Assembly (NCBI GenBank): GCA_903813345.2
Contig: CAIIXF020000008.1
Location: 28,148,005-28,212,004 of the forward strand
Length of the DNA stretch: 64,000 nt
Source of the DNA: Owenia fusiformis
Lineage: Eukaryota; Annelida; Polychaeta; Sabellida; Oweniidae
Reading direction: 5' to 3'
Shown: positions 10,525 to 56,826 of the stretch, in pieces
Layout: each line of letters starts with the position of its first letter
How positions within the stretch are numbered: the first letter of the stretch is position 1
The notes under the pieces: generated by a model
What the model saw: only the letters and a program-made list of their open reading frames with translations
What the model was told of the DNA's origin: nothing
Database searches by the model: none
Position numbers and translations under genes: made by a program

Positions 10525-13500
10525 CTGAAAAAATATGTAGTAAATAATTTTCTTGTTAGACACAACTTCATGGACAGGGCGTAGCAAGACATGAGGCAGA
10601 GAAAAAATAAAAATTGAAAAGACTTGTTATTTTAGAGATTTTTGAAATAAAAATTTGATAAGAAAAAGTCAACTATTTATTATTGAATATTTATTTTATT
10701 AATTTAATAAATAAATAAATAAAAATTTCTCAAATATTCAAGATTGAATTAATTTTTATAATATTGACACCAGTATTTATCACTTTTTATTCAATTTTTC
10801 ACTCGCCTATTTATATTCACATTTGCCTCACTTATTTTTTAACACTTGTCTTGCCCCTTAACTTACAAAACAAAATATTTTTATCCAGATTTTGTCATTC
10901 ATCTTCAGTTTGTTTAGATAAAATCGATAAGTCTGTCATCTTTATGTGACACCAAGATGGAGAATGAAATTAATAAAAAGTTATACAACTATGCCATCTA
11001 TCTAAGTTAATCAAAGTTAAGTTAACAAACGCATAAGAGATTGTGAGAACTCCTAGAAAATACCAGTGCTCATGTTAAATCTTCCCAAAAGGATAATACT
11101 GGATTTTTTGGTGAATGTTTTAGCTGAAATTCTTAATTGTGAATTCAGATTAAAAATAACAAGCAATTCCTCATGATGAGGGCAAAAAATCTGCTGGGTG
11201 CAAGGTAATGTCCACATTTCGATGGGTGCAAAAGAATTTTCTCATGGGTGCAATGCAATTTTCAACTGGGTTCAAATGAACTTTCCATTGGGTGTAAAGA
11301 AGTTGGGTGCAAAAGAATTTTCTCATGGGTGCAATGCAATTTTCAACTTGGTGCAAATTAATTTTCCATAAGTTGCAAGGTAACTTTAAAACTTTAAACT
11401 TGGTGTAAATGAATTTTCCATGAGATGCAAGGTAGTTTTAATACTTTTCAACTGGGTGCAAATTAAATTTTCACTGGATATGAGGTAGTTTTCAAATTTT
11501 CAACTGAGTGGAAATGAATTTCCCATTGGGTGCAAGGCAGTTCAAATATTCAACTAGGCGCAGATGAACTCATCAAAAGTAAATGAATTGAATAAAAGAT
11601 TTTCATGGTATTAACTGGTTCTAGTCCTTGGTTGCTTCAAAACTGACCTGATATGCTTCTATTGTAGATTGGCTGCTGACTCTGTCATACAGTTCAGCTG
11701 CAACCCTGATCCCAGTAATTGTTTTAAGCATTTCAGCATTCTCAGTTGGTTTGTCCAAATAAGCTAACAATGCCAGCTGAAATGTAAATACATAGCTAGA
11801 ATCATTGAACATACATATATATATTGTAAATGGTATACTGGCACTTTATTAGTCAATTAAATTGCCACATACAGGGTGGTCAAAAAACCCTATCAGTATT
11901 TTCCTCAATTCTTCAAAATTACTCCCTGATATATGACATGCTTGAGCATCATTCAATATCCTACCTACACTGCATGCAGAGTCTAGTTATAAACTACCCT
12001 CTGCATAGAATATACAGTTTAGTAGAACTCACCCCTCCCCCCCCCACCGACCTATGCCCATGGCAGCCCAGATCATAAATCAATTCAAACCTACCGAGCT
12101 GATCTTTTCTCAACCAATCAGCAAGCTGGAAGGAACACATGATAAATGTGCTCAGGGGGAAATAATCCCAGGGTTCAAAGAAGACATATCATAGACAAGA
12201 CATTTCACATGTCATGTAAATCTATATTGAGAAGACATATCGTCCCGATTGGTCAAATCGCAGGCAAACAATGGGGGTTTCAAAATTTTCAAAATTTTTA
12301 GTTCGGTGAGTTCAAAGATTTATTATAAACTGAAAGAGTGAACATGAAGCTCTCTTTTAAAGAAGCGAAGTTGAACAAATGAAATGGTTTATCCTACCAG
12401 CTTACAAGAGGTGTCACGGATACCCGATTTTGTTCCGATCCGCGGAATTATGCCCTCGGAATTGTTCTGTTCCGAAGCAAAATGTTCCGAACCGAACCGT
12501 TCCAATTTTTTTTGTTCCGTGACATCTCTACAGCCTACCATATTAATTTTATGATCATCAGACTGATAGTCACAATGTTACAGCTCTTTGAACAACATGC
12601 TCCAGTGGCCACTAAAGCACTATCTTTTGAAATGCTGACTGAATTTTCAAAAAGTTTCTGATTCAAGAGTGTATGAACACCTCAAACAATCAAAATCTGC
12701 ATTTACATTTACATACTTTATTTGTAATCAAAATATTGTAACACCTATCAATAAAGAAATGACTTGCAAGGAAGGTATTGAAAATCTCAATCTTGAAAAA
12801 TTCTCAAATTTTCTTTGAAAATCTGTCAACTTTCTCTATAGCCAGGGGAGGGAGATTTCCAAAAGATGAGTGTTGGTATTGGCACGTTCGATAACCAATT
12901 TTATATAGGGCCATATTTGCCATTGAAATTAATCTCAGAATGTTCGCTGTTGTTTTATGAGTGTTCTCTTCAAGTTTGGATTGAGTTACTTAAATAGTAA
13001 GAAATGATGATGTTGAACTGATGTTGAACTGAAACAAACGACATTTCCACGATTTCAATTTTACTTTGAGCATGCGCAGCTATGAGTGAGCATGTGCTCA
13101 TGATCCTGCGATATGATTGGACTTCATATGTAGGTGTGATTTAAATAAATTATGTTCATGAATATGAAATAATTATGAAAGCTACTGATGTGACATCATC
13201 CGGAGTGGTGTCACATTCTCAGATTACACATATGATCTTTGAAATAGACATCAATATCACTGGAAGTTGCCAAAACCCTCCATTAAAAATATGGTCAACT
13301 ATTTTGTGCTTTTATCAACAGACACTTTCATATTTGTGTGGCTTTATTTATTAGAGATAAAGCTCGAGTCCATTTCACTGCTTCATTTCGTCAGTAGAAC
13401 GACAAAAATAAGAAATTGGGAGACCACTGTGCAATAATATATGGAAAAGTATATTCATAATGTACATGAATGACATTTGTATATTTCAGATTTTTTAGTT

Positions 13501-17601: not shown

Positions 17602-20600
17602 GTAAGTATTCTCGTTTGTTTATAAAATTCGTCTGCTCAATTTTCTTGACATTGATTTTCTCTGTCTTTCCAGTCCAAAATCAAAGATTGTTCAGATTGT
17701 ATTTATGATTTTGAAAACTGAGGGAGGATATTGTATCTGTCAGATCAGTCAGCATTTGAAAGAGGTTAAACCCAAGACCGATAAGACTGATTTCTATAGT
17801 CAAGAGATGATTCAGGATCATTTTTAGGTCTCAGTTCTAAATACAGTCCGAATCCATATTATAGAACTATAGGCAGTCTGACCTTATAGGACCACTAAGT
17901 CTTTGAAGGAGGTAGAGCTTGAAGGCCTATGTCAATGACTAGCTTCTCCATCTCTTCCCCCCCCCTCCTCAGGTGCCCATGAGTAAAATGTGTTGACTGG
18001 ACTAATTGATTTCTTTAGTTTTAGGATAGATACACACAAGACTGAAGAAGAAAATTTGTAAGTCAATAGGACAAGCCATGAATGTTCAAGATAAAAGCCT
18101 TAATCATTTAATGTTTATTTTTAGAATACCGTGTCCTTGGGAAAAAGGGCGAGGGCACATTCTCAGAGGTGCTCAAATGCCAGAGCATCAAAGATGGGAC
18201 TTACTACGCATGTAAGAAAATGAAACAACATTACGACAGGTAAGTGTCACTTTAATGAAACAACATTACGACAGGTAAGTGTCACTTTAATTTCATTGAA
18301 ATTCTAGTTAAAACACTTGCAGAAACAACATTACGACAGGTAAGTGTCACTTTAATTTCATTGAAATTCTAGTTAAAACACTTGCAGAAACAACATTACG
18401 ACAGGTAAGTGTCACTTTAATTTCATTGAAATTCTAGTTAAAACACTTGCAGAAACAACATTATGACAGGTAAGTGTCACTTTAATTTCATTGAAATTCT
18501 AGTTAAAACACTTGCAGAAACAACATTACGACAGGTAAGTGTCACTTTAATTTCATTGAAATTCTAGTTAAAACACTTGCAGAAACAACACTACGACAGG
18601 TAAGTGTGACTTTAATTTCATTGAAATTCTAGTTAAAACACTTGCAGAAACAACATTACGACAGGTAAGTGTCACTTTAATTTCATTAAAATTCTAGTTA
18701 AAACACTTGCAGAAACAACATTACGACAGGTAAGTGTCACTTTAATTTCATTGAAACTCTAGTCAAGTAAAACACTTGCAGAAACTATTGTTTCACAAGA
18801 AGTTGTTATCAGAGACGTATGGCATGTTATGTTACTTGTTTTTTTCTTTCTCAATATCATGTTCAATTTTAATTCAGAGTCATTTCCTTGAAAAATATGG
18901 CAACTGTTTTTAATATTTTAATATGATATTGGGATTCGGAGGATGAGAATATCGTTTATACTGTATTCATTATTTTTATGGAATTTAATAATTTTCGATT
19001 TATTATAAAACATCTATATTAGTAATTTTCATAATATAGCCCTCCTGTATCAAAAAACAATAAACATTACCAGATCACATGTATTTAAACTGTGTCAAAT
19101 TCTCACCTTAGAAATAAAATAATTTGAATATTTTGATGAATGTAGGTTGCTATTATCAAATAAGCACCTGATTCTGGAACATGATCCAACAATCAAATAA
19201 ACCTTTTTATTTTTTATGACTAAATATACTTCAAGTATATACTTTTCAATGAATATCGACCCATGGCCACTTTAAATGCAAACAAACCTAGGATCTTTTT
19301 TTTAGAAAACTAGTACTTTTTGTTTAGATTATGTCGTGTACTCATGCAGAGGTAAAATATAAAAAATAGAGAATTCTACCAATATTCTGTGTGCAATACC
19401 TTTCTCCGATTCACGATCCATGATTATTCCAAAGTCTCCCTAAAGTGACATCCATCTCTGAGGTCCAGCCCCTCTAAATAATTCATAAGACCAAAATGCT
19501 CCTTTAGTGTGCTGCCCCAAATGTTGTACAAATAGCAAGAAAATCCTTAAAATGTTGCATGTAGAATTTTCTGACATCGAAAAATATTTATGGTCCAATT
19601 TCGTCCTCACCAATTAAAATTTATCATTTTTTATTTCAGCATCGAGCAAGTGAATAACTTGCGAGAGATACAGGCCATGAGGCGTCTAAGTCCACATACA
19701 AATATCCTGGAGCTGAATGAAGTTGTCTTGTAAGTTTTAAAATAACTATTTGTTAATTGAGTTCCCCTTTTTCATATGTACATGAGATAATTAAGAGAGA
19801 TATTCAAATATTCTCAAACACTAAGGGGTTGCGACTATGTTTTGTTCAGCAATTTCTCACAAGAGTCATTTTTTCCAAGTGTCACAGATGTACCTACTGA
19901 ACTTTGCTTTTCAGGTGTTTTGTGATAGGTTTTCTCTGAGGTTTCAAAACGTTCTACTATACTTTTCATACCACTTATACTGTCGTTTAAGCTATCACTT
20001 TCTGAATCCTTTGTCAGGGTGCTTGTTGGGGTGCTTTTCTTTTCAGAGTACTTTAATTTTTTTGATTTGTTGCGCCACCTCGAAAATGTAGTTTGCTCAT
20101 CGTATTTTGTACATGTGAAACATGTTGAACTGCAGGCCTTCCACTGTACATTGACACTTTGTACAAGATTTAAGAAATCATTAGAGAATCTATAGTCCTT
20201 TCTTTGAAGATTTCTAGAACATCTCTCACAAACATTCTTGGGATGAATGCACTGATCGTCATATCTTGTATTCAGTTCTGCTTTAATAAATATCTCGCTC
20301 TCAAATGACTTACAAGTTCTTATAGAAAATCCCTTTCTTTTTCTCTTTTCTGTTTGAACTTTAAGTCCACATAGTCTACATAAAGTATTTAGTGCCAAAG
20401 AATGTTTCTCTGAAGCCATTTTCAATGTTCAAACACTTGTTTCAAGGAGAATCATATGTACTAAGACAGGCAATGAAAAATCCCATGGAACATGAAATGC
20501 AAATCAGATTTTGAGGGTTGAATTACAGACATTGCTAGATTAACCCATTAGCCCCAGTGATTAAATGAAGTCTTAACATGAAAACTTGAAAAATTTATTG

Positions 20601-23600
20601 AAATCCATAGGGGTGGACATAGTCTACACCAGATACAGGAAACCATATGTCATACAGTATATCTTAAAGTGATTTGTGAGGAACACATGCTTTATTCACA
20701 GTGGTACATTTTGTGTTTCCAGGTTCATAGCCAGGTTCTCCCCCCCCCCTAACCAAAAACTTTCCAAATCAGGGCAGTTTTTAAGCACTTTTTAAGTGAG
20801 TTTGGTCATTTTTGGCCAAAATTGTCAAAAGTGAACCCCCTGGAAATTTTTGAAAAGTGAACCCCCCCCCCCCTTGGCAAAACCTGACTACGGGCCTGCC
20901 CTCCCATGCTTCTTGAACACCACACTCTTATAAATTTAGAGTCTGACAATGTGATATTTTCTTTACAGTGACAAGAAATCAGGAGTATTGGCCCTGTTAT
21001 GTGAACTTATGGATATGAATATATATGAGCTTATACGAGGTAAGTACCTGAAATTGGTATGCGATTCATGCTTTCTTCACTCTTTTTTCACGAAATGGGT
21101 CATTGACTTCAGGCTTGATTACTTCCTAACTTCATCTGAATCTCATTTTTTTCTCATGCCATTGTGACATTTTTTGTTAGATATATGGGTCTGAAATAAC
21201 TCCCATTGTGACTATCCATATACTATGAGAAACCTTGAAAAACATTGATAAGAAAAAATAATTGTTATCCAATTCATAAATCAACTGCCTTTAAGAGAGA
21301 GTTCTATGGATAAACGACACTTTGACACATTAATATTCAATAAGTAACTGATACTTTAAGGAAGCATGGTTAGTATGTCTTGAAAGAGGGGAGAATTCTA
21401 TAAATAGAATAAGATTGAGACAGTCTTTGTTACAGGCTACCACAGATAATTATCATGTGTATATTAGAATTGATTGTTGAGCAAGCTTATTGTCAATTCC
21501 GAGTAAACAAGATGAAATACTGATACATCACTTTTCTCTCTAAAACTTGAAAGATATGCCTGATTTTGTGTCATTTCTGTACTAAAGATCGACTTGGTAT
21601 CTGTGAAGTTCTCATTCAACTCTTGCCACTCTATCAACAATTTTAATAACATCATCAGACATTTTAATAGAATTTAATATCAAAGGAAACACTTTATATA
21701 CAAAATGCAGCTTTGCAATAGAGCAGTTATAGCCACATTGAAAAGATAATCACTGTGTAATTTTTTAATGGTTTGTTTTTATACAATTCCAAATGGATTT
21801 TGACATAATGAGCCAATGCTCAACAAACAAAATTTCTACATGACACAAGTCACATCAACATTCATGTATTTTAAATTTTTAAATGTAAAACTAAATACAA
21901 TAGCTTAAAATAATATTTGTTAAAAGACTCGCTATTTTATGATTTTCTATATCAGTTTTGCTGAATGTTTTGCTGTCTCAACTTTCTAATTTATTCTATA
22001 CCAATTGTCAACTTTTATGTTCAGATAAACAAAATAACAGGCGACACATATATGATTACACCCCCCCCCCCTCAAAAAAAACTATAGAAATTATTTATAT
22101 TCTAAATTCATAAACTCAACCGTATCTGAATTACAAATATTCATTGTTGTCTCAGTGCATGGTAGTAATAAGTAGAAGACAGAAATTGCCATTAATCTTT
22201 TGTACTTCTCTCTGTATCTCTAAAGTGATAGCTCTAATGTACGACATAGGAAAAAAACGTACATATTGTATTTAATTAGATTTAACATAATTAGACTTAA
22301 TTTAATCAGTGCAAAGATTTCCACTATGGTCATAAGAAAGAGAGGGGGAGAGAAATAATGTTTTCATGAAAGGTAAATAGTATGATGTTCTTTTTTCCTA
22401 AGATGAAACTTATCCCGTAAAACTGAGACTTATCAATAATGAAGGAGGTAAAGGTATTGTCTGAAATGACAGATTTATGGTTATGTGCAATTATTTCTGT
22501 CCGAGCCTCTATTGAAATGGAATATTCTTGTTACTCATTTAGAGAAGCGATGATCTATGGATTAAATGAGAAACACTTCTGCAGAATTGTTAGGATGTGC
22601 TTTGTCTATATATAGGGTAGTAGCCTGTATACAAAATAATTGAGTGGTCTTGTATCTAATCATAATATACTACAGTCAGTAAAAAGTGAAATCAGAAAAA
22701 CCTGTCTTGGTGAACACCTCTCTCTCGTGAACACCAGTCTCTAGTGACCCCCCATCTTCCGCATATACTCTACTGACTTTTGTATAAATTACACTCTGTA
22801 GTGAACATCCAACATCGAACATTTTTTCTATGTAAAAAATGTTCAATATATACAGGTTTTACTACACTTTTATGACAGAAATGTATACCTTAATTCTCAT
22901 CCAGAATTTTATAATCATACGATTTATCCCAAAACTTAAGCCATATTAACCTCTTCTTTCATGTTCAGAGCTTTTTTATAAAACATAATGAAGTTGGCAA
23001 CTACTAACAGCTATTTGTATATTATTATTCAAGAAGAAAATCTGGCTTTTTATGTCACCCTCCCCCCCCTAATATACATAGTCTCGCAACCAGTCCCTCA
23101 TATTTGTTCATTCATCACCAGTGGAGATCAGAGAATAGAATACCATAAGAAATGTATTCTGTATTCTGTTGTTTTATAATGGAAAATAGAGTTGAAAAGA
23201 GTGGAATCAGCAAGGAATAGAATAAACAGGCATGTAGTCAACACTTCGAATTGTATAGAAATGCAAGAAAATCAGAAACCTCCTTCAAATTTTCGAGAGA
23301 AAAAGATGCATGACAAGGGAAAATTCTAGATACGTGCATGCTTTTAATGAATGTGACAGACATTCCAAAACTGTTGTTATTTAAAAAATTAAACCTCAAA
23401 CAATTTTACCAAACAATAAAATTGTGAACAAATACTAAAATTGCTGAACCTTTTGTATTGGGAAAGATAAAAAGATCCTTTAGAAAATGAAATGTGTATA
23501 ATATTACTTCTTTCAATTCAAACCATTTAAAGTTCATAGAAGGGAACTTCAATATTATGGATAAAGTTGAAGTTAGTACCTTTAGTTTAAGAAAAAAGGT

Positions 23601-26600
23601 CTTAATTTTGAACAGTAGATGAACTCTATTGTCAATTATGAAATTAATATTAATTTAGTAAGTTAATATATGGGCATTAGATTGCATGGGTATATGCCCA
23701 TATTGGGCATTAGGTTTTAAGTCACTATATTTAGGCATTTTCTTATAGAGTTTTGGCCATTAAATGTAAGGAAACTCTAATGAGGCCCTATGTACATAAG
23801 TCAATCCGTTAAGTCCACTCATTTCAACGGGGATAAAAGTTGTTATTTCTGGGTCAATATTTGTTACAAGTTTACCACCCAAAGGGGTTAATGTTATTTA
23901 TAAGGGAGCTAAGGGTATACTATCAATATGTGTACAAACTCCAAGTTGTTTCCTTTTCTTAAATTGATTGCTATTATTGTAAGTGAAGGTCCTGCTTGTG
24001 TTGGTTACAATAAAGACCGCTCTTCCAAATAATAGCCAAATCGAGTCATGCCATTATTTGCTAAATATGGTTCTAAAGTGCTCATTTTCAAGGTCAGACT
24101 ATCTAAATGTCGTATAACATTTAGAACAAAATTCACACTATTAAGATTGAATATTTTGAGGGGGATTAAAATTGATTGATTATAATTCTTGTTGAATATT
24201 TTGAATGGGTGTTTCAATGTTAAGTCTTTGTTAAGTTAAGGTTAGTATTCTGTAATGGTTTATAAGATTATAGGGGCTACCCCTTGGGCATTTGTATATC
24301 CATCATGCTGTATTGTGTATGAGCTTTATTGAGCTTTATTGGGTCAGTGGCGTAAATCATGGAATTGTATACATGGTAGAATATGCCAAATTGATCTTTG
24401 GATTTGAATGTACACAAATTGGATTTGTAGAGTTTATATTGAGATAAGAAATTCAAAGCTTTAAATAAAATGTACTGTATGATATTATTGTTGAATAACA
24501 GTGTAGACATTTCTAGATGAATTGAGGCCATGAACTATTATTTTATTTTTGGCTTGCATCCTTTTTTAACAGTTTGTGGTTTTAATGGTTAGATGGGATG
24601 GAATTTAAGATTTGTACCTTTACTTATTTGAAATATTCCATGGAATATTTTTTAAATATTTTGTTATGATTCATATTTCCCTTTTAAGAGATTGATTCAG
24701 TGTCAAACATGTGAGTTTTTCACCAATATACTTGTTTGAATATTTCCAGTGGTTATCATTAACTTAATTAAATTAACTTTATGACAAAAAGAACCAGGAT
24801 TTGCTTATTGAAAATGTAAATTCTTCAACGATTTTAGTACATTTTATCAGCTCTTAGATCCAATTGTGTCTCACAGTTCAAACACATATTTACATAAAAA
24901 ATAACTCAACAAATAATTCTATTGACACCCAGTGTTGTACAAGAACCTTTTTATTGAGTTGGTTTTCATGTCAAACCTTCATTCATGTAATATTTATTTT
25001 GAAAATCTGAGATGTTTGAAAATCATTGTTGTATTTTGAGAACGCTACTTCATCGAATTTTTTACAAGAGATTTGTGTTTTCTGGCATAGCAACAATATT
25101 TACCAAATTCAAGGTCATTTATCAGAATGATAAAAATAGCATGCCTACACATTTAAATAAGTATGTTCCAAAATCATTATATATTGTTTATTGTTAATCA
25201 TAATATTGTTTCTTTGTTAATCCAAAGATTTTGTAAAAATTGAAATTTTCATTCAAATAAATGTACATGTACATAAAGTCTCACTTATGTTTGATGAATG
25301 GTTATTCTTATTGTAATATGTTGATTGTAATTTTTTTATTTAATTGATTAGAAAATTAATCTTTTTGTTTATAGGGAGGAGGCATTATCTCTCAGAGACC
25401 AAAGTGAAGAGTTATATGTATCAACTCTGCAAATCTATAGACCATATGCATAGGTAAGAGAAGGAATTAATTTTTAGATAATAATGAATTGTACACATCG
25501 GATATTTAGATGTTTCATCGAAAACATAGGCAAAATGTGATTTTTTACTTTTATTTGTAACAAAATTACCTGATTTGAGAATTTTTTGTTCACATGTTGT
25601 CAAAATATATATGCATCTTCTGTAGTCTAAATACCAATCTAAAAACAAAAATCTTATATGCTAAAAAAACATTAGATCTAAACTTTTTATTGTATGAGCT
25701 AAAATTAGCTAAAATTTATTTTTATTTTATAGATTATCAGATATTATAATTACTCTCTTCCAGGAATGGAATCTTCCATAGGGACGTTAAACCAGAAAAT
25801 ATTTTAATAAAAGATGAATTGCTCAAATTAGCAGACTTTGGTTCATGTCGGAGCGTGTACTCCAAGCAGCCATATACAGAATATATCTCAACACGTTGGT
25901 ATAGGGCACCCGAGTGCCTTCTCACTGACGGATATTACACACATAAGATGGACATGTGGAGTGTCGGCTGTGTCTTTTTTGAAATTTTAAGGTGAGTGCC
26001 CATAATTGAATATTAGCCTACCCTGAGACAAGCATTAAAAGGACAATGTGCAATTATTGTCAAATATCCCTATGGTCAAAATGAATCATTCGTAGGTGTA
26101 ACATGAAGAATAAAATGTCATATAATACTTTGGAAAGTATTAAAGTGCTCGGACACACATAAGCTGAGATAGGGATCATTTCGTTCAGTAAGGTTATATT
26201 GACTTACATGGGGCTGTGCACCATTGATTTAACATGAGGATATCAGCAGATCCCAATAGAGGCCATTGGTTTCCATTAATTATCACAGAAATACCAAAAA
26301 TACACTATGACCTGAATCGATTGCAAACTTAATAATTTCACAATACGACACAAATGGTTTATCTCATCAAATGTGCAAATATGAAGTTTGCAATCGATTC
26401 AGGTCATACTTAAAATTAAAAGATTGTACATTTTTTCATCATTTTTTCCCTACAAAATGGCTATAGAAAAATGCTTCAAAAACAACTTTTACACTTATCA
26501 AATATCATACAAGTTTGTAAAACCAAAGATTATACTATTATATTTCATTATGTAGTAACATATTTGGATAAGATGCAGGGATGCGTAGGATGTAAATGGA

Positions 26601-29600
26601 TTTTGACAGACACAAAAATACTTCCTGGTTTGGAATCTATGCCTCTACACTTCATGATTGAATTATGACCCTAATAAGTGGCCTATACATCAATACAGTG
26701 CTGAATATAGGTCAACAAGATACTAGTGTGCATATAAATGTAATAATTGAAGCAGAATACTCATTTTGAAAAATCAGATGAATTATTTTTTTCCCATGGG
26801 GAGATCCCAATGGAGGGTGTATAAGGTCCTTTGACACTCTGAATATCTTGAGTGAACGAAGCTCTCTTTTAGAGATGACAAATTCAACTATTTTCAAAGG
26901 GTAATCTTGTATGTATCCATATACATTATTACTCCTCAGATGTTTTATATTATTACCATTCAGATGTTTTATGTGTTTTCTATGCCATGGTTCTGTCATC
27001 TGGTGACCCCCTCTTGTCCAAGAAATATCTTTTCATCACATCCCTATCACTCCCCTATTTTCTTGATATCACACCTTGCCCTTGCCTCGGTTTTAGTGTA
27101 TAATCACTCCCAAAATTGTGCTTAACCTTTACCATGCTGCCTTATTTCAGCAAATATATCCCACGCAACTGGCTTATTTTTCAAAGAGTGCAAAAAATGA
27201 TATACCTGGACTAAATAATTAATATCTCAATAACTACTGAATGAATCTGGATAAAATTTTCACAAAGGGAAGATACAGTGGCCTGGCTCATGAAAAAAAA
27301 ATGTTCTCATGAATTTTTTCGTACATTAACACGACTGGGCATAAATATACCATGAATACTCCTCCGGAATCCGCCGCTCCGCCTCTTCGTCTGGTCAGAA
27401 TCCAAATCTGAATTTGCAGCGATCGAATGTTCAATTTTTCAATTCAGAAAATATTCTAGTTTCTATTTTCGATGACCGTTATCGGCTTCCAAGAGCCTAA
27501 AGAGCTCGAAATCGTAAACTATTTCCTCCACATTTTCGTTGTGATCGTATTTGTCCACCATTTTGTACGATTCGTTCACTAAAAACGACTAAAACACTGT
27601 TTAAATTGTTGAATTGAGAATTATTTTTCGAAATATCGCCATTTCTAGGTCAACAGGAAGTCATGTTAGGCACTGAATAAATCGGGCAATCTAATTGGAC
27701 AATACGAATGGCCCGAAAAAGTAAAGTTTTTAAAAGTTTGAAATCGGGCGTACGGGTCCGCCGGCAGTTGTGAGAGACATTTTAGTTTCGGCGGACGAGT
27801 CCGCCGGCAGCACGCTAAAGGTTAAGGCTTTGGTCATTTCAACTTGAATTAAAGGCATGTTGAGTGTAGGCTGTACCTTCTTTTTCAATTAAAAGCTTAG
27901 AGCTGTCTTTTGTACAGTCTTAAAAGGGATGGAGTCCAAAAATGTGGGAAAGTCATTTGCAAATATGATTTCATCAGGGAAAATGTTGATTTTTTTTAAT
28001 ACGTAAAAACCAAATGAACACCTTCAATTTAAAAAACAGATGAGGGGTAAACAAAAAGTTACAAAATAACTTTGTGTTTGTTATATCATCACAAAGTAAA
28101 AAATGTGTGAACACTTTTCTGAAATAAACATTAACTGTATGGTAAATTAAGTCTGTTTTATAATATATCTGATTCTTTATAAATCGCTATTACAGCCAAC
28201 CTTAGACACATACATATTGTTAAGTGATGAAATATTACACCATGCTACAAAACACAACACAATTTATCATTTCATTTCAACATCTGTCATATAATATTTT
28301 CACAGCTTTTAAGTTCATTTTTGATTGAGTCTGATAGCTCAATAGTGTCAACGTTTTGATTTATGGTCTACAAATAATTGATCAAAAGACCGATGAGTGA
28401 GTTAGCTCAAATAACATTTTTTCTGAAGAGCTTAGCTCTGGGGGTGGTTACTTATTCGTGTAGGGGTAAAAGATTATGTTTCGTTTAAAGAATTTTGATC
28501 CCCATATACTGGCTTCATTGGTCCATGCATTTGAGCAACCTTAATGATCAGGATTTCAAATTTTGATCTTTGGAATCGGGGGCACTATCTTATTATGATG
28601 AGAGGAAATAAATGTGTGCATCAATGTTGTGTTTCTTCTTCCTCCTAACTATCTACAGGTATATACCTATATACCTAGAAGGAATGTGAATTGCTGTTTA
28701 ACTCATGTATATTGTAATTATTAAGAAACAAAGGGAAAAGTATGACATTCACATTTCATGAGTCTAAAAGGTATTATCATAAACATTTTTTCAAAAACTA
28801 AAAGACCCCTCAAAATGGATATCAATAATTTTGAAGGCTTTGATAGAGCTAGAAAATGTTTGAGTATTCTTTTAAAGATGGCATCACAGAAGTTAATGTT
28901 GGAATAAAAAACTTGATATATCACGCTTCTTCATTGGGCTTTCCTGCAACAAATGTAATGAAATACAAGGGACAATCGATAAATTTCGCAACCATTAACA
29001 ATTGCAATAAATTGCAATCTGATAAAATATTTGAAGTCATGTCATCAAACCTTTAACAATTATTTCCAAAACTAAAGGCCCCTCCAAAATTGTTAGAAAC
29101 AGAGGGTCACTTGTATAATTTATTGATCACCCCTCGTACCTTTAGACTATACGGATACTGACACATGTATTTCTGTTGTTTCAGTTTACACCCACTGTTC
29201 CCTGGTTCCAATGAAGTGGACCAGATTGCCAAGATCCATGACGTACTAGGAACCCCTGATCCTAGTGTGCTCAATAAACTTAGGAAGTAAGTTGACTGTT
29301 TAGGGCATGGAACACTATGTTTTTATGTAGGCTTCAGTGCTTAAACATTTATGGATATCGAAGATGCATCTCTGAACATGTCTGAAAATCGGACAAAGTG
29401 TTTACAGAGCTCTAGAGAATTTGAGGTGTTAAGTCATGCAATTAATTTTGTGTACTTTAGAATTAATTGAACATTTGAAGTGTTGGTTATGACAGAAATT
29501 CATTGTTTATTCACATGCGATAACACTACATTGCCGTTTTTTGGGTGGACTTCTGTAAACAATAAAAGCAAAAAATGTAATTGATGACATGAAAAATTTT

Positions 29601-32600
29601 CCAAAATTGAAACTATCATACTTTGGTCAAATTGGTAATTTTCTCCTTTTTAGTAAAACTCGAGGAATGAATTTCAACTTCCCATCAAAGAAAGGAGTCG
29701 GCATCGAGAAGTACCTCCCTCATGCGTCCCAGAGTGCAATAGAGTTAATTTACGATATGTGTGCGTACGACCCTGATGAACGGATGTCAGCAAAACAGGC
29801 TCTTAAACATTCATACTTTAAAGAATTAAGGTAAGAAAAATACCCTTACACATGAGCTACATTATATTGGACAATGTGAAATATCAATGTGTAATTTTCT
29901 CCCAAAAAACTTGATTTCCAAAAATTTAGCATTGTAGGAACAATAATGTTACTCCAGTTGTAACATATTATGAACAGAGGAGTGGGAGGGGTTGAGTCTT
30001 TTAGCAATGAGTAAAATCTATATAGATAGATTCAATTTAGAAATCCCTCATTTTAGGAGACTATCATCTGATCACACTCTGAACTTTCATTCATGATTTT
30101 AGTAAGTTATGAGTAAAATAGAGGTCACTGTCTGTTTATACACTACCTTAGCTGGGCCATGAGTTTTCTTGTGTACATGCTATAATTTGTTTTCATATTG
30201 TGTGATAAGACAGTAAACAAGGAACACATTTTAAAAGATCCAGACACATAAAAAGCCCATTTCACATGCATTATTGCATGTAGTACCGCTATGTGTTATT
30301 GGTTATTATGTGTTTTTTATTGACAATTTGTGGGAAAGTGACAATTTTTTCTTGAAATCGGGTTAAAATTGATTTCAAATTCCTATTAGCTTCTTAGCAA
30401 CAGTAAATTGAATACTGTCCTGGGGTCAACTTATTTTTAGACAACCCACATATAAAACTTCATGGTATAGGTTTTAAATATAAGTGAAGGGAGAGAAATA
30501 TGGAAAAAAGGCATGAAAACTATATATGAACAGACTAAAGAAATATAATTTGTAGATGTATAAAATTAAATCAGTGAGAAAATTCACGTGTTTTAAAGAG
30601 AAAGTGTAACCAAATTTGCATTTTATGTCTGGGTAACATTCATTTCATGATTGCACGTATATATATATAGTCTATACTCTATAGCAACCTACCTACCCAA
30701 AATATTACATGGTGTGTTCAATGGAGATTGGAGCACTTTTTAACTAAAAATGATCATCTGGCAAATAATGCTATTAACCAGTTCAAATATGAGGTGAAAA
30801 TGTGAGTTGTGTTTTTAGTGTACAGTCAGATTTTAATGAGTGTTACTTCATTAAAGTTGTATGTATGTTTGTGACTTGTGATTGGTTTTATTTGTTGGAC
30901 AGGGGAATGATGCCAGACTGTTTGTATAATTAAAATTCTGTAGGCTGATATGAATGACTTGGCTATAGTGGCTTTCCGTTGGTCTAAAGTCGGGAAAATA
31001 AATATTCCAAAACAAATACCAAATATTAAGTTGAACCTCAACCTCAGTTTTGTTGATTTTTAAGAAATTTAGTTGTTGCCTAGTAGTTTGTTTGCCAAAC
31101 AATGTTTTCATTGCTTGATTGACAAGTTTTATGTCTGCCTAACAAACTAGATGCAAGTACAAATACATTTATTTACAAAGTTGTTTGAAATCTACAAAAA
31201 ATATTTCTACACTTGGGGATTTAAAATTTATTTTTCAACCTTGAAATCTTCCGAAATGTAATTTCTACATTGAGTAGAACAAACCTAACCAGTTTGTTTT
31301 TTCATAAATCTGTGCTTTTTCAAACAACTGCCAGACATGTTTATTGATAATTCACTTGTATCTTACCTGACTAAGGAGATAGAACAATGTTGTTTACTGA
31401 TTGAATAACCATATCAGATACATGTAGGCATTGTTGAATAACTAAGATCATTGTTAAATAAATAAGAGGACACTTATACCTAAATATTGACATCTATACG
31501 ACATGTTAATATTACAACTGAAATGACCATTGAAAAGTCAATAAAATATAGAGAAAGAATGCTACCTCGTTTGACTTATTAGGACTTCATATTATAAATA
31601 ATTTGTTATAGAACAAATCTAAAAAATCTTCAATAGGTAAAATATTATAGAAATAAGAAGAAAATAATTTAATAACCTGATATCAAGATGAATTGCTTCT
31701 GTGTTTGATATAAATAGTATAAATTATGTTTAAATATTTGATATGTAGATTAGACATGTTCCAGACAATATTCAACACCTTTGACCTTTTAGCACTAATG
31801 TCTATTGTATTCCTCTCTGCTTAAACTTATTTCAGTTTATTTCTCTCTAAAATTGGAAGTATTCAATTTTCTAATATTTCTATATTATAATTTTTGTTTG
31901 TACATGTACATGTACTTGGGTATGAATGTACTTAAAGAATAAATATTATTTAGCGTGTTTGCTACATTTTTTCCTTGCTAATTCCTCTTTTTTATCATGG
32001 TACCCTAATCCTAAGGAGTCACATTTATTGAAGTTTTGATACAAAATATTATATCACTGTATACTGATTCAGTTCAATAGAAGTGTGTGTTTATTATTTC
32101 AGTAGTGATATTGAAATATTGACACAACCATTTGGCTTCATTTTCAAGAAATTTTCAAAAATGGATTATTAAATTCATTGATAATGTTTTCAAAGTAGAT
32201 GTTATAATTAATTAAATATCTGATGTCTCTGATGTTGGCAGCTTTTCGCACCTTAGTTGACAAAACAATAGAACTTATCTTATCTTATAAAATAACAATC
32301 ATCCACAGGCAATCCACTTTGTAATTACACAGCAATCAGTTATCCAGTAGGTAAGTGTCATTGTGATACCCTTTTCTTGAACTTTCCAAAGTCGCATACT
32401 TAACAGCGGATATGTGTCTGGTAAATCAGGATTGGATCACGTTATTTAGTTTCGTTTTGATGGAAACTGCTTTGTTCGAATCCTGATATTTCTTTGGGTT
32501 CATTCAAATATCAAAATTGGAGGTAACTTATATCATGTTTTTGCTGGAAATGAGAATCTTGAAACTTGATATGTTTCAGTATGGATATTATAAGGATTTA

Positions 32601-38600: not shown

Positions 38601-41600
38601 TTTGATTTACACAGTTATGTAATTTGAATAACTTTCTATAACAATTTAAAAAAACTTCTTTAAATCCGTGGATTATTTGTATGTCAATCAACATTTGCAT
38701 GTTTAATCACATCATGTTCATAAACAGGGTCATCATGTGGTATATCATTCAAGTTTTATACAGATTCAACAAACACACTTTGATAAATCATGAAATTAAG
38801 CCACTTTTCCAAGATTTTAGCATGTAAATGAATGGATCTCTAGCCCAAGTTAAAAGCTGAATAAAAGATGGCAGCACGAGATTTCATTGATTTTTCTGCT
38901 ATTTAGAAACTATCCTATTCATACAAGAATGATCCAAGAATATACAATGATATCTGTCTGGTTGAACACATCTCTTTTTAAATCTTTTTTTTTTTGAATG
39001 TACAATTAAACCAATCATGTATGATGTACTTAAAATGATTAATGGCAATAAAATCTCTTGATAAAAAGAACTAATCTGATAAAACACCTCTCAGTAAAGA
39101 ACACCTCTCTATATGGAACAGTTTTCAAAAACCTCTCATTGGCTTAATCTTAATGATCCTCTATTAGGAGAACATCTGTATATGAGGAACAATAAAGGAA
39201 ACTACTGAAATCGTTCCATTAAGGTTTCAATGTAATGGTATGCATGTAGCCAACCTCAAAGAGGCATCAACCCCTGTTTTCTATGCCAAATTGTTTTGAG
39301 GACTTATTTGAGGGCATCAACCCCTGTTTTCTATGCCAAATTGTTTTGAGGACTTATTTGAGGGCATCAACCCCTGTTTTCTATGCCACATTGTTTTGAG
39401 GACTTATTTGAGGGCATCAACCCCTGTTTTCTATGCCAAAATGTTTTAAGGACTTATTTGTGGGCATCAACCCCTGTTTTCTATGCCACATTGTTTTGCG
39501 GACTTATTTGAGGGGAAGAGATGTTTATGTACCAAGCTGGGTTAATCAGTCCCATTCGTAGTTGGTAGTGGTACATTTCTCACTTGTCCAACACAGAGCA
39601 GATCTTAATGTCGTGTAGGTTTGTTTAGTAATCAATTTTAGAATTTCTGATGAAATATATTTAATAAAGACATATCACTAACTTGTAGGGATGCTGATAA
39701 ACGCCAAGCTCAGCTCGAAAAGCAGAAAAAAGAGAAGGAGAAAGATAAAAATGATAAACTTGCCAAAGAGAAAGAAGATGATGATGACAACAAAGATGAG
39801 AAGAAAGATGAGAGGTGAACAATGATGATTGATGCTTTGCTTGAATAACTGCACTGATTTGTGGAATATCATAACATGTTTTTGCATTTTAGATTCATCT
39901 AATATGAATGTATGTTTGTTCAATCTAACAGCATGGTGTTATTGGTACTACATTACTCAACTGCACTACACTACAATACTCAATTTTATTTTAGCACAGC
40001 AACATTTGAGTGCAGTGACATCGCAAGTGCTTACCCAACTTTTGCTGTGGATATGCAGTATTTTATAATACTATTTATTTACTGGATGTTTGGTTAAGCC
40101 TTAACCATAGGGTTGAACAATGAACATTATGTTACGATGGTTGAACACTGTTTCATATGGTTGAATTTTATGTTTATGGTTGAACATTGTGTCACAGTGT
40201 GTTGGAGTTTATGTCACATGCATGAATATTGTGTCAAATTGTTGAACTTCGCTCACACCCGGTTGAACAATGCATTTCATGGTTGAACACTGAAACACAT
40301 GATTGAACATTGAATCACATGATTGAACACTGAATCACATGATTGAACACTGGATCACATGATTGAACACTGAATCACATGATTGAGCACTGAATGAATG
40401 GCACATTCAATCAAATGGTTGAACACATATGGTCAATATTTTGCTCATGAAGTTGAAACAGAACTTTATAATCTTACACATTTTGTGATTATCTGAATAA
40501 TTGTTCACATAGAAAGAAAATTTTATTTTCAATTTTGGTTCATTGAAACTAAATCTCATTAGAATGTAAAAGATACATGAATGAAAATTCGATGTAATCA
40601 AGCCTTGAATTTGTGAATTTAAACTTTTGATAGAAAAAAGAAAAAGTCGAAGTTCAAAGCACATTCAGTGTTCGCTGATGAGGTTCACGAAGGAACAAAG
40701 TTTTTGTCCATCCATGACTTGGACAAAAAGTCACAATTCTCCATTTCGCTGTTCGCTCTTTGAATCAGAACGTTCGCATATATGGTGCATATATGTACTC
40801 AAAAAGGACAAAATTTGATTGGTCAATATTTTTCAACGATGCATTTCGTGTAGCTATTTGTGAGACCCGAAAGTTCTAAATCAAATTAATTACGCAATTT
40901 TGTTTTTACACCCGCAAGCTAAATAAAAAATGACACCATCGGAATTCTTCTTCTTTGTCATTGAATTAATAGTCAGTATACCAGATTTAATCAATAAAAG
41001 ATTATACAATTAACAACAAAATTCGGAAACGAGTATGTAAGATTTGCTTTCGAACCACTAAACTTGACCTAGATAATAGCGACGTGTCTTCTTTGGTCAA
41101 ATGCTCAGTTGTTTGTGGGTTTTCAACGTAACTCTATAATGTAATATGAAGATGAGTACTTTTATTCAGTTGTTGCATCGATGTTACAGTTTGTAGTGCG
41201 GTAATATTGGCATGAACGTGTTGAAAGTCGAATGGAATTGCTTTTTCCAATATGGCGACTAGTCACGCGACTTCTTCTCTTCCGGAATATACTCCCATTT
41301 TCAATCATTGTTTTCACCCCGTTAGGAGCCAATAAAATGAAAAAAAATATATGTTATATAAAGATTATTAAAAGACTAATTGTTTCTGATAGTTTGTTTT
41401 CTCCGATCGCATGGAGATTCGATCGAAAATATCGCTTGAAAAATGGGTATGAAAATCCCCATGTTAAACCAACGGGGAAAAACAAGGTAGAAAAATTTGT
41501 TCCCCCGCGAACTGCATCATGGGAAATATTTTGACCTTATAAGGAAAAACTTTCGCGCCATCTTTATTAGAGATTCAATACTACCGAATCCGCGATTTTA

Positions 41601-46405: not shown

Positions 46406-46835
46406 CATTGTAGTCATCACTTGTATATTGTAGTCATCACTTGAACACCATTGTAGTCATCACTTGCTCATTGTAGTCATCATTTGTGCACCATAGTAGT
46501 CATCACTTGCTCATTGTAGTCATCACTTGTGCACTATTGTAGTCATCACTTGCTCATTGTAGTCATCACTTGAACACCATTGTAGTCATCACTTGCTCAT
46601 TGTAGTCATCACTTGAACACCATTGTAGTCATCACTTGCTCATTGTAGTCATCACTTGAACACCATTGTAGTCATCACTTGCTCATTGTAGTCATCACTT
46701 GAACACCATTGTAGTCATCACTTGCTCATTGTAGTCATCACTTGTTCACCATTGTAGTTATCACTTGTGCACTATTGTAGTCATCACTTGCTCATTGTAG
46801 TCATCACTAGTTCATTTCAAGTTACCCATGGTTCA
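46406..46835. repeat. Two-level minisatellite (ATTGTAGTCATCACTTG)
   Basis: The 17-base core is followed alternately by CTC and AACACC, giving 20- and 23-bp units that form a 43-bp higher-order pair repeated about eight times. Confidence 0.9.
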
Positions 46836-47089: not shown

Positions 47090-48205
47090 ATGTCACCACC
47101 AAAAGTGGTGACATATTGTTATGGTCTCCGTTTTTTTTTGCGACGGCGGTTGGTGGTTGGCGTCCGGCGTCCGGCGTCTGTAACAATTTCTTACAACTTC
47201 CTATAACTTAACAAATACTGTTTAGACTGACTTCAATTTTTTTCTAAATCATCTACATGTTCTCAGAAGTTCAAATCTGACTTTAGATTTGACATTTGAC
47301 CTTCAATGACCTTCTCAAGGTCAAAAAGGTCTTTTTTCAACTTGCTTCACATTGACTAAATTTTTTTCAAAATCATCTACATGTTCTCAGAAATTCAAAT
47401 CTGACTTTAGATTTGACTTTAGATTTGACATTTGACCTTCAAATCTGACTTTAGATTTGACATTTGACCTTCAATGACCTTCTCAAGGTCAAAAAAGGTC
47501 AAAAAGGTCTGTTTTCAACTTGCTTCAAATTGACTAAATTTTTTTTTCAAAATCATCTACGTGTTCTCAGAAATTCAAATCTGACTTAAGATTTGACTTA
47601 AGATTTGACATTTGACCTTCAATGACCTTCTCAAGGTCAAAAAAGGCCAAAAAGGTCTGTTTTCAACTTGCTTCAAATTGACTAAAAAATTTTTTCAAAA
47701 TCATCTACGTGTTCTCAGAAATTCAAATCTGACTTCAGATTTGACATTTGACCTTCAATGACCTTCTCAAAGTCAAAAAAGGTCAAAAAGGTCTTTTTTC
47801 AACTTGCTTCAAATTGACTAAATTTTTTTTTCAAAATCATCTACATGTTCTCAGAAATTCAAATATGACTTTAGATTTGAGATTTGACCTTTAATGACCT
47901 TCTCAAGGTCAAAAAAGGTCAAAAAGGTCTGTTTTCAACTTGCTTCAAATTGACCAAATTTTTTTTTCAAAATCATCTACATCTTTTCAGAAGTTCAAAT
48001 TTGACTTTACAAGTTCTCAGAAGTTCAAATCTGACTTTAGATTTGACCTTTGACCTTCAATGACCTTCTCAAGGTCAAAAAGGTCTTTTTTCAACTTGCT
48101 TCAAATTGACTAAAAAAAATTTCAAAATCATCTACGTGTTCTCAGAAATTCAAATCTGACTTAAGATTTGACATTTGACCTTCAATGACCTAACTAGGTG
48201 GTGAC
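47090..48205. repeat. Tandem repeat of AAGGTCA-rich units in a dispersed element
   Basis: It starts with ACCACCAAAAGTGGTGACAT and a GGCGGTTGGTGGTTGGCGTC head, then seven or so units of about 137-178 bp (CAACTTGCTTCAAATTGAC, AAATCATCTACATGTTCTCA, ACATTTGACCTTCAATGACC, TTCTCAAGGTCAAAAAGGTC). It ends AGGTGGTGACATTTTGTCA, inversely matching the start. The short inverted ends suggest one mobile unit with expanded inner tandem repeats. Confidence 0.85.
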
Positions 48206-54095: not shown

Positions 54096-56826
54096 GTAAG
54101 AATCAAATAGTTATTATCACTCCAATTTTCTGCAAATGGGCTGCGCTTTGCATGATATCTCCGAAAAATCTGGAAACTTGATCGAACCCTGGAAAAACCA
54201 GGAAAAGGTGGAGCAGCAAAAACTTTAATGCGATGAAAAATTAAAGGAATTAGTAGAAACATGGGCTTTAAATTTGAAAGCCCATGGTAGAAATTGTAAA
54301 AAAGCATGTTATTTCCCAAGTGTAAAATGTTGAGAGCAATCTTTTAAAGAAGCATGTTATTTCTCAAGTGTAAAATGTTGAGAGCAATCTTTTAAAAAAG
54401 CATGTTATTTCCCAAGTGTAAAATGTTGAGAGCAATATTTTAAAAAAGCATGTTATTTCCCAAATGTAAAATGTTGAGAGCAATCTTTTAAAAAAGCATG
54501 TTATTTCCCCAAGTGTAAAATGTTGAGAGCAATCTTTTAAAAAAGCATGTTATTTCCCAAGTGTAAAATGTTGAGAGCAATCTTTTAAAAAGCATGTTAT
54601 TTCCCAAGGGTAAAATGTTGAGAGCAATCTTTTAAATAAGCATGTTATTTCCCAAGTGTAAAATGTTGAGAGCAATCTTTTAAAAAAGCATGTTATTTCC
54701 AAAGTGTAAAATGTTGAGAGCAATCTTTTAAAAAACATGTTATTTCCCAAGTGTAAAATGTTGAGAGCAATATTTTAAAAAAGCATGTTATTTCTCAAAT
54801 GTAAAATGTTGAGAGCAATCTTTTAAAAAGCATGTTTTTTCCCAAATGTAAAATGTTGAGAGCAATCTTTTAAAAAGCATGTTATTTCCCAAGTGTAAAA
54901 TGTTGAGAGCAATCTTTTAAAAAGCATGTTATTTCCCAAGTGTAAAATGTTGAGAGCAATCTTTTAAAAAAGCATGTTATTTCCCAAGTGTAAAATGTTG
55001 AGAGCAATCTTTTAAAAAAGCGTGTTATTTCCCAAGTGTATAATAGCATGCTTTTTTAAAAGATTGCTCTCAACATTTTAACACTCAAGGTAAATAACAG
55101 GCTTTTTTAAAAGATTGCTCTTAACATTTTAAGCAATCTTTCAAAAAAGCATGTGTTTTCCCAATTGTAAAATGTTGAGAGCAATCTTTTAAAAACATGC
55201 ATATTTCCTTACAATAATGATTTTATTTTCTGGAAAAAGAACTGACATAGCCGATTCACTATAGAAATATCCCAAAATGAAATGAATAAAGAATCGTCTT
55301 ATTTTACGAAACTGTTCTTCAGAAAACCTGAACGTCGAAAGAGTATCCCCATATAGAGAGAAAAATTTTCGAAAAGTATGGCATGAAACTTTTACAGCAA
55401 AAATATCAAAAACCGTGTCAATTTTTTACTCTATGATCGTCTCCATTCCTTCTCCATTAAAAGGGATATTCCTTGCCAGATCATTTCTCTCCTGTAGCTA
55501 TAACCATATACTTTCCATATTTGGCAAAACACGGGACAATCAATATGATCAATGATCATTCAAATCATAGTTCTTATTATGGTAATAGCTACCATACTTG
55601 GATAGAAATGGTCTGGTAAGGAAAATCCCTAATATCATGTTGGCATGGAAGGAGATGTAAACTGAGAATAGTTGATTGATGGCTTGTTTTTGATTTATGA
55701 GGGGTTGGGATTGCTCTGTTTCCTTGAATGGTACCCCTTGTGAGTTATTAATTCCGTAGCACATTTTCTTTTGAAGCACGGTGAAGACCACAGGCCAATA
55801 ACAAAAGCTCTAGAAATCAAGGAGGGGTCAACCATATTCAGCATAGCATCTGCAGGTTACAACCCGTCAATGCTGCTTCTAGAAAACCCAGCAAAGGTAG
55901 TCATGACTGATATCAACCCTACTCAGATTGCCTGGTGCATGCTTTACTTTAGTGCTATCAAGAATCTTACGTATGAAGAGTTTCGAAGCCTGGTTGGATT
56001 TGGTGAAGGTGCTACAACCACCTCCGATGAGAGGGGGAGAATTTACGACAGTCTGAGAGGTTCATTGCCGAGTAATGCATTAGTCTATTGGGACTTCCAC
56101 CGTGACAGTATGAGCAAGTCGGGAATGTACTTATTTGGGAACTTCATTCGCTACTGGGGTTTGGAGAGATTTGCACCAATAGCTCACAGCGAGGAAACTT
56201 TGGACAAGTTTTTAAGTTTTGGAGATATTGACCAGCAGCGTGTTTTCTATGAGGAACAATGGGACACATGGCGATGGCGAAGAGCTTTTATGCAAGCCCA
56301 TCTGAATATTTCACCAGTTGTATTTCGCCCATTTATGGATCTATTGCCACAACTTGCTCCGAGGTGGTTGAGTCGCTTCCGGGAAATTTGCATGAGTGTT
56401 CCTAATATGGACAATCCCCAAATTGAGATACACTTAACTAGCAAAATCTCGGGAAAATACGGTTTACCAGATTTCTGGAAACGGGAAAATTTCGTCCCGA
56501 TTCGTGAGCGCCTAGATAAGTTTGAGCTCATCCACGCTGATGCAAATGAGTACCTCGAACGTACATCTGAAAAGTTTGATGGCTTTGTTCTATCAAATGT
56601 AGGAGATGCGTATGGCAAAGAAAAACATGACCAATGGGTTACAAGAGCCATAAAGCGTGGAAAGCCTGGAAGTAGGATCACGTACCTCTCTGTCGCAGGT
56701 ACAAATAAAGGATGGCCTGATGCTGAAAAGGACAGCATTCGTGTTGAGCAAGAGCTGTCTAGCCTGCTACAAGGAATAGAACGAGGCTTTCTCTGGGATG
56801 AGTTTCATATTGCTACGTTGAAATAA
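53940..56826 (+). CDS. DUF3419/BtaA-like aminocarboxypropyl transferase
   Basis: Two coding exons: 53940-54095 (52 codons, donor GTAAGA) and 55777-56826 (349 codons plus TAA), both phase 0; 401 aa. The nearer acceptor at 55759 would give a stop at once, so 55777 is chosen. The core has SIASAGYNPSMLL (about 74-86) and VMTDINPTQIAW (94-105), the two S-adenosylmethionine-binding motifs of the family, then LTYEEFRSLVGFG, YWDFHRD and, near the end, FDGFVLSNVGDAYG. Bacterial BtaA moves the 3-amino-3-carboxypropyl group of SAM to diacylglycerol, the first step of betaine-lipid (DGTS) synthesis. The second enzyme domain, BtaB methyltransferase, is not fused here. The first 20 residues are basic and lack acidic ones (MSRILSAIGRIGRRAVKP), possibly a targeting helix. 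The family is well known from bacteria, fungi and algae; in an animal it may reflect gene transfer. The substrate is inferred from the family. Confidence 0.82.
54303..55195. repeat. 48-bp minisatellite with an internal inversion
   Basis: The unit AAGCATGTTATTTCCCAAGT then GTAAAATGTTGAGAGCAATC then TTTTAAAA recurs about 16 times with little change. At about 55,045-55,125 two copies are inverted (TTTTAAAAGATTGCTCTCAA), after which the direct orientation resumes, so the array can form a strong hairpin. It fills most of the only intron of the DUF3419 gene. Confidence 0.95.
55777..56826 (+). CDS. Exon 2 of the DUF3419 gene
   Basis: A single 1,050-base exon carries nearly the whole domain. Acceptor ACATTTTCTTTTGAAG. 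Its long uninterrupted frame contrasts with the many short MOK exons. Confidence 0.9.
   Translation, partial: HGEDHRPITKALEIKEGSTIFSIASAGYNPSMLLLENPAKVVMTDINPTQIAWCMLYFSAIKNLTYEEFRSLVGFGEGATTTSDERGRIYDSLRGSLPSNALVYWDFHRDSMSKSGMYLFGNFIRYWGLERFAPIAHSEETLDKFLSFGDIDQQRVFYEEQWDTWRWRRAFMQAHLNISPVVFRPFMDLLPQLAPRWLSRFREICMSVPNMDNPQIEIHLTSKISGKYGLPDFWKRENFVPIRERLDKFELIHADANEYLERTSEKFDGFVLSNVGDAYGKEKHDQWVTRAIKRGKPGSRITYLSVAGTNKGWPDAEKDSIRVEQELSSLLQGIERGFLWDEFHIATLK

Follow-up and report, generated by a model that had tools for sequence, protein, structure and literature searches.

A tandem array of nine splice donors at the end of exon 2 in a MOK-like kinase gene of the annelid Owenia fusiformis, and similar exon-edge minisatellites elsewhere in its genome

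The stretch of DNA analysed here (the window: 64,000 nucleotides of an Owenia fusiformis contig, GC content 34%) carries on its plus strand a MOK-like kinase gene. Seven of its exons, numbered 2 to 8, have been located, all with open kinase-like frames; the name MOK is given from the motif set. The first-pass annotation was right about the gene, the end of exon 2 and the reading frames, the joined frames having since been computed. The exons are as follows.

18125–18239, plus strand: exon 2, ending in KMKQHYD plus AG (phase 2), with the acceptor TTTTTAG upstream
19640–19729, plus strand: exon 3, which joins exon 2 in frame
20969–21039, plus strand: exon 4, boundaries placed by eye
25380–25460 (approximate), plus strand: exon 5, an open kinase-like frame
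25764–25991, plus strand: exon 6, ending in EIL; the surrounding open frame (25750–25995) matches Pfam Pkinase at E 8.1e-28
29190–29288 (approximate), plus strand: exon 7, an open kinase-like frame
29654–29830, plus strand: exon 8, ending in YFKELR; Pfam Pkinase at E 5.5e-6 on the enclosing open frame, under the cut-off

GSK3, MAP kinases and CDKs are among the best 60 of 1762 PDB matches to exon 6. Exon 2 matches profile positions 1–35 of Pkinase (E 1.5e-4, under the family cut-off) and has a single match in the genome; exon 3 by itself has no kinase match in Pfam. Intron 3 contains, on the minus strand of the window (19835–20428), a 197-aa open frame matching the Pfam family RAG1_imp_bd (E 3.7e-5; 23.9 bits, cut-off 23.3), putatively a RAG1-N-like gene or element fragment inside MOK.

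The boundary between exon 2 and intron 2 is repeated. Nine copies of the donor GTAAGTGT, the number originally claimed, lie in tandem at 18240, 18275, 18340, 18405, 18470, 18535, 18600, 18665 and 18730; they are nine of the eleven plus-strand occurrences of this sequence in the window, and none was found on the window's minus strand. The array is far beyond chance. Its parts are listed below, D1 denoting the first donor.

18223–18257, plus strand: copy 1, with the exon tail, the donor and the 35-bp short step to copy 2 (from repeat analysis)
18240–18245, plus strand: D1, CAG/GTAAGT, joining exon 2 to exon 3 in frame and presumed to be in use
18258–18322, plus strand: copy 2, 65 bp, its exon part lacking TTGCAG upstream
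18323–18712, plus strand: copies 3 to 8, 65 bp each, with TTGCAG, a 17-nt exon copy and the donor
18713–18781, plus strand: copy 9, its intron part unlike that of the internal copies (GAAACTCTAGTCAAGTAAAAC), an unhomogenised array edge
18781–18785, plus strand: GAAAC on the intron side, also present in the exon at 18222–18226 (by reading)

Tandem Repeats Finder reports the array as 18257–18785, with period 65, 8.1 copies and 97% matches, and separately reports the first step as 18219–18291, with period 35, 2.1 copies and 100% matches. The earlier description of a 65-bp minisatellite with the end of exon 2 as its core holds, the last eight donors lying in the 65-bp array and the first step being 35 bp. 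One correction concerns the acceptor-like TTGCAG that had been assigned to every unit: of the eight later exon copies, seven (18323 to 18713) have it directly upstream, and the copy at 18258 lacks it because the step there is 35 rather than 65 bp; it occurs once more past the array, at 18782. Each 65-bp unit consists of 17 exon bases and 48 intron bases, the boundary reading as the 17 exon bases followed by GTAAGTGTC... and intron, so that the unit spans part of an exon, a splice site and part of an intron. The authentic boundary copy is retained in a gene that is open through exons 2–8.

The internal units are alike, and those at the edges lie outside the homogenisation. Three of the six internal copies (3, 4 and 6, identical to one another) match the consensus, and copies 3–8 together hold four substitutions in 390 bases. 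The final copy has a diverged intron part followed by TTGCAGAAACTATTG, the exon counterpart of which is TGAAACAAC, with GAAAC common to both. Selection acting on the exon portions of the copies was considered and set aside: two substitutions in 102 exon bases against two in 288 intron bases are too few changes. By reading, the differences at 18464 and 18591 (copies 5 and 7) are third-position transitions, silent in the KQHYD frame, two being too few to interpret. A DNA search of the genome with two units gave at least five matches, all within the array, and no locus beyond MOK.

Arrays of this anatomy belong to a published kind, the amphioxus "mirages", which were reportedly first described by Canestro in 2002. 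As a later paper describes them, mirages are tandem repeats across exon–intron boundaries in Adh3 and in the globin genes BflGb6 and BflGb9; they are found at either boundary, and AG/GT signals are present in many, though not all, of their units (PMC3087553). The same paper describes two BflGb6 haplotypes with six and three units and edge units that escape homogenisation, and proposes that introns may be gained from mirages; the Adh3 data and globin RT-PCR given there suggest that regular splicing is undisturbed (PMC3087553). Mirages have also been described in TnC and PGBD5, and that report states that the Adh and TnC arrays make no aberrant mRNAs (PMC3902484). The MOK array resembles the amphioxus cases in its exon-boundary unit, its unhomogenised edges and the recurrence of such arrays across genes. 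It differs in its non-cephalochordate host, its 65-bp unit and its nine donors, and in being known here from the sequence of one assembly alone. Minisatellites at exon–intron boundaries are likewise a feature of human segmental duplications, where they can give rise to alternative splicing or to new introns (De Grassi and Ciccarelli 2009, PMC2812944); the human repeats were scored by transcripts and by repeat-number variation among paralogs, whereas MOK exon 2 is single-copy and read from DNA only. A search by title and abstract of literature on other animals, annelids included, found no further splice-site arrays; most subscription papers lay outside its scope, and it is no proof of absence. 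What is new is thus the extension of the phenomenon outside cephalochordates, into an annelid.

The anatomy of the MOK array was also sought genome-wide, as three exact donors in series, either CAGGTAAGT or AAGGTAAGT. Three copies of CAGGTAAGT with spacers of 45–75, 15–44 and 76–106 occur at 147, 110 and 114 places (55, 50 and 58 in reversed-pattern controls), and three of AAGGTAAGT with a spacer of 45–75 at 182 places (control 41); since several overlapping places can fall in one array, they are not independent; these are not counts of arrays, and no enrichment of arrays is claimed from them. At least 31 other donor arrays could be grouped from the places listed, and 28 of them were analysed (L006–L013 and L015–L034), many in stretches that end inside the array; C4:11887377, L014 (whose stretch begins within the array) and L035 (with no donor at its start) were left out. 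Exon translations ending at the first donor were put to Pfam for 22 of the 28. The exon at the start of the array has a Pfam match in 12 of the 28, eight passing the family cut-off (B56, Ion_trans_2 with TVGYGD, UCH, Adaptin_N, NIF, NT-C2, Caprin-1_C and Il2rg) and four under it with E<1e-3 (FANCI_S2, Kringle, Sec5 and Calpain_III). Four more, without a match, have frames of 112, 117, 182 and 442 codons ending at D1 (L017, L020, L016 and L025, respectively), which brings the arrays with either a match or a long frame (112 codons or more) to 16 of 28. A further six have plausible exons with no significant match (L006, L008 at E 0.043, L010, L019, L023 and L029), and the six not put to Pfam have short frames only at D1 (L011, L013, L022, L024, L028 and L032).

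The opposite boundary is affected as well. A corresponding acceptor pattern is found at 81 places, with 44 in the control, and leads to arrays over the starts of exons; 13 of these, from a larger number, were analysed, and of five exon heads put to Pfam two pass the cut-offs (PI3_PI4_kinase and UMPH-1). These two, L039 (C10:27220100-27221700) and L041 (C7:14574700-14576200), are mirror-image arrays, in which the repeat comprises an acceptor and the first part of the exon after it. Exon-edge minisatellites thus recur in this genome, on both sides of the boundary and in unrelated genes, with MOK as one example. As a rough estimate, units of about 55 bp and an assumed 200,000 introns would, with random placement, leave some thousand donors (in order of magnitude) at the edge of an array, so that recurrence needs no special mechanism.

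Some of the donor arrays might instead be translated as repeats. Units of a length divisible by three (3n) are found in nine of the 21 arrays measured (20 others and MOK, which is not one of the nine), where seven are expected by chance. Read in the exon frame, three of the nine reach a stop no more than three codons from D1, and four (L009, L019, L030 and L010) stop after 1.6 to 21.3 units. The remaining two, L017 (C6:7469300-7471000) and L031 (C5:3181300-3182900), with units of 42 and 54 bp, meet no stop over the 10.1 and 4.4 units that the stretches contain, so that later donors there would lengthen the protein rather than truncate it. Inserted or deleted bases among the nine number 4 and 6 in L009 and 0 and 5 in L010, with one base deleted in each of L019 and L030 and none in the other five. 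Translation as a general explanation was rejected or left weak in view of the in-frame stops in seven of nine 3n arrays and of the count of 3n units, L017 and L031 being the exceptions; on balance, the copies in donor arrays fit intron, with translation conceivable for those two.

The intron share of the unit is skewed low, with a median of 0.23 in 21 arrays (20 others and MOK, with L016 excluded; Kolmogorov–Smirnov test against uniform, p 0.0013). In L010, L015, L019, L021, L026 and L033 the duplication edge lies inside GTAAGT, at an exonic AAGT or GT, and the unit consequently holds almost no intron. MOK, with an intron share of 0.74, is not of this low-intron type.

The likely course of events at MOK begins with a tandem duplication across the boundary of exon 2 and intron 2, which would have produced the 65-bp unit of 17 exon and 48 intron bases. 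The seed may have been the 5-bp microhomology GAAAC, present in the exon tail and at an intronic TTGCAG. Slippage or unequal exchange would then have expanded and homogenised the array. The donor would be repeated simply because it lay inside the duplicated unit, and the TTGCAG "acceptor" would be native intron sequence carried along with it. At the RNA level D1 would most likely be the donor used, and copies 2–9 would be removed with intron 2; since they would leave with the intron, the array would be close to neutral.

Reading frames bear on which donor is used. Splicing from D1 joins exons 2 and 3 in frame. Because of the phase 2 end of exon 2, each later donor would give AGG TAA at once, and the immediate stop foreseen for any later donor with retention is indeed present in eight of eight. 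Computed joins also agree with the earlier statements that one micro-exon gives a frameshift and a stop in exon 3, and that three stay open and restore KQHYDS. In full, inclusion of the first 1, 2, 4, 5 or 7 micro-exons shifts the frame and meets a stop in exon 3, while the first 3 or 6 keep it, restoring KQHYDS with an additional 17 or 34 residues. That the frame recovers at each third 17-base copy follows from the number 17 itself and is not evidence of design. As all later donors stop at once, the gene can work only if D1, or a seamless product equivalent to it, accounts for a substantial share of splicing, and D1 is, to judge from these frames, probably used substantially.

Two considerations complicate the choice of D1. 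Where several identical donors compete, the one nearest the intron can be preferred by the spliceosome, as reported from experiments with duplicated donors; such a preference here would yield truncated products, and it counts against the reading in which the first donor is used. The other is RNA structure: the idea that the later donors are hidden by local folding was rejected, the prediction being the opposite, with D1 the least open of the nine (0.21, against 0.30–0.42). Some mis-splicing at the array is possible, and its products would be bait for nonsense-mediated decay (NMD). It nevertheless seems quite likely that this is a mirage-type array in which D1 is used, copies 2–9 are spliced out with intron 2, and the repeats themselves are nearly neutral.

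The first-pass annotation had gone further, proposing that copy number could tune kinase output or create substrates for NMD. In its fuller form, competing donors and micro-exons would make up a copy-number-dependent switch: premature stops and NMD would set the kinase output, and inclusion of three or six micro-exons would lengthen the kinase by 17 or 34 residues. In favour of such a switch, none of the nine donors is damaged, an AG acceptor stands before seven micro-exons, the frame is kept with three or six of them, and the predicted openness is lowest at D1. The acceptor tracts are weaker than those of the gene's own exons, however, with a pyrimidine fraction of 0.50 before the micro-exons and 0.45 at the site past the array, compared with 0.65 and 0.70 at exons 2 and 3. 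The switch would also have to work with 17-nt exons and with 48-nt introns between them, and 48 nt is short for an intron in an animal. Similar anatomy at unrelated exons of the genome counts against such a switch, as do the in-frame stops, such as intron would have, in seven of the nine other donor arrays with 3n units, although two lack them. In amphioxus, comparable arrays were reported to leave regular splicing undisturbed (PMC3087553, PMC3902484). Tuning by copy number has found no support beyond the frame arithmetic and, opposed by the weaker tracts, the recurrence at unrelated exons and the amphioxus precedent, is unlikely; we would give the switch perhaps one chance in ten of being correct.

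Another possibility is that each unit is spliced as a seamless 65-bp GT...AG intron, stepwise removal leaving the exon unchanged, in the manner of recursive splicing or of intron gain by AGGT duplication. Intron gain through tandem duplication of AGGT sites is reportedly the subject of work by Rogers and of Zhuo 2007, and a study in Drosophila is said to concern intron gain by tandem duplication. The likeness is that each MOK unit could itself serve as a GT...AG intron and be removed seamlessly; the difference is that the AGGT duplicated at MOK is an existing donor, with no new intron position needed. By reading, CAG/GTAAGT is present in every copy, so that the canonical mRNA would result whichever copies were joined, save for silent differences between them. 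In the 20 bases upstream of the CAGs at the nine donors, however, the pyrimidine fraction is 0.30–0.40, under that of the acceptors of exons 2 and 3, and the open gene is already explained by D1. Use of the units as ratchet sites, which would call for a pyrimidine tract immediately before CAG/GTAAGT, was rejected as the main route on these weak tracts, and seamless splicing in general is decidedly improbable.

The repeated donors might also serve without being cut. In one version, the donors past D1 form a docking platform for U1 that strengthens the definition of exon 2 or protects the intron from premature polyadenylation. The integrity of all nine donors is compatible with this, as is the slightly better preservation of donor columns across the 21 arrays, with 36 mismatches in 1540 against 411 in 12026 for other columns (Fisher p 0.023), a difference biased by the selection of the arrays through exact donor matches. 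Better-kept donor columns are not predicted by pure neutrality. Homogenisation alone, on the other hand, would maintain the likeness of the copies, and a U1 platform at MOK seems slightly less probable again than seamless splicing. A broader conjecture is that exon-edge minisatellites stand at hundreds of exons genome-wide, that their repeated donors are kept as extra U1 sites aiding exon definition, and that array length is a heritable, fast-mutating splicing dial for genes such as MOK; this is about as doubtful as the stepwise removal of units. Finally, an assembly artefact or a wrong copy number is scarcely credible: tandem arrays misassemble easily and the haploid assembly gives one haplotype only, but the copies carry private substitutions, both edges are unlike the inside, and comparable arrays occur elsewhere in the genome.

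If, as the mirage-type reading would have it, D1 prevails over eight identical donors downstream, the MOK array and its siblings constitute a natural experiment on the choice that the spliceosome makes between donors of equal sequence, in which copy number, spacing and reading frame vary between genes and perhaps between individuals. Exon-edge minisatellites also supply material from which introns and exons may newly arise, a role proposed for those of the amphioxus globins, and their recurrence in Owenia fusiformis means that this material, described in cephalochordates, is found in an annelid too.

The window contains six further minisatellites, at 1525–2295, 11341–11542, 39263–39514, 46406–46816, 47446–48172 and 54297–55044. 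With the MOK array these make seven arrays with periods of 25–150, spanning 3,640 bases; adding five 10-kb pieces of DNA, one with three arrays and four with none, gives a rough density of 10 per 114 kb. A candidate for bantam, a protostome microRNA family, was also noted (E 9.3e-8, under the gathering score). An uninterrupted 360-aa frame on the plus strand of the window, at 55744–56826, matches DUF3419 (E 4.8e-33), a BtaA-like family.
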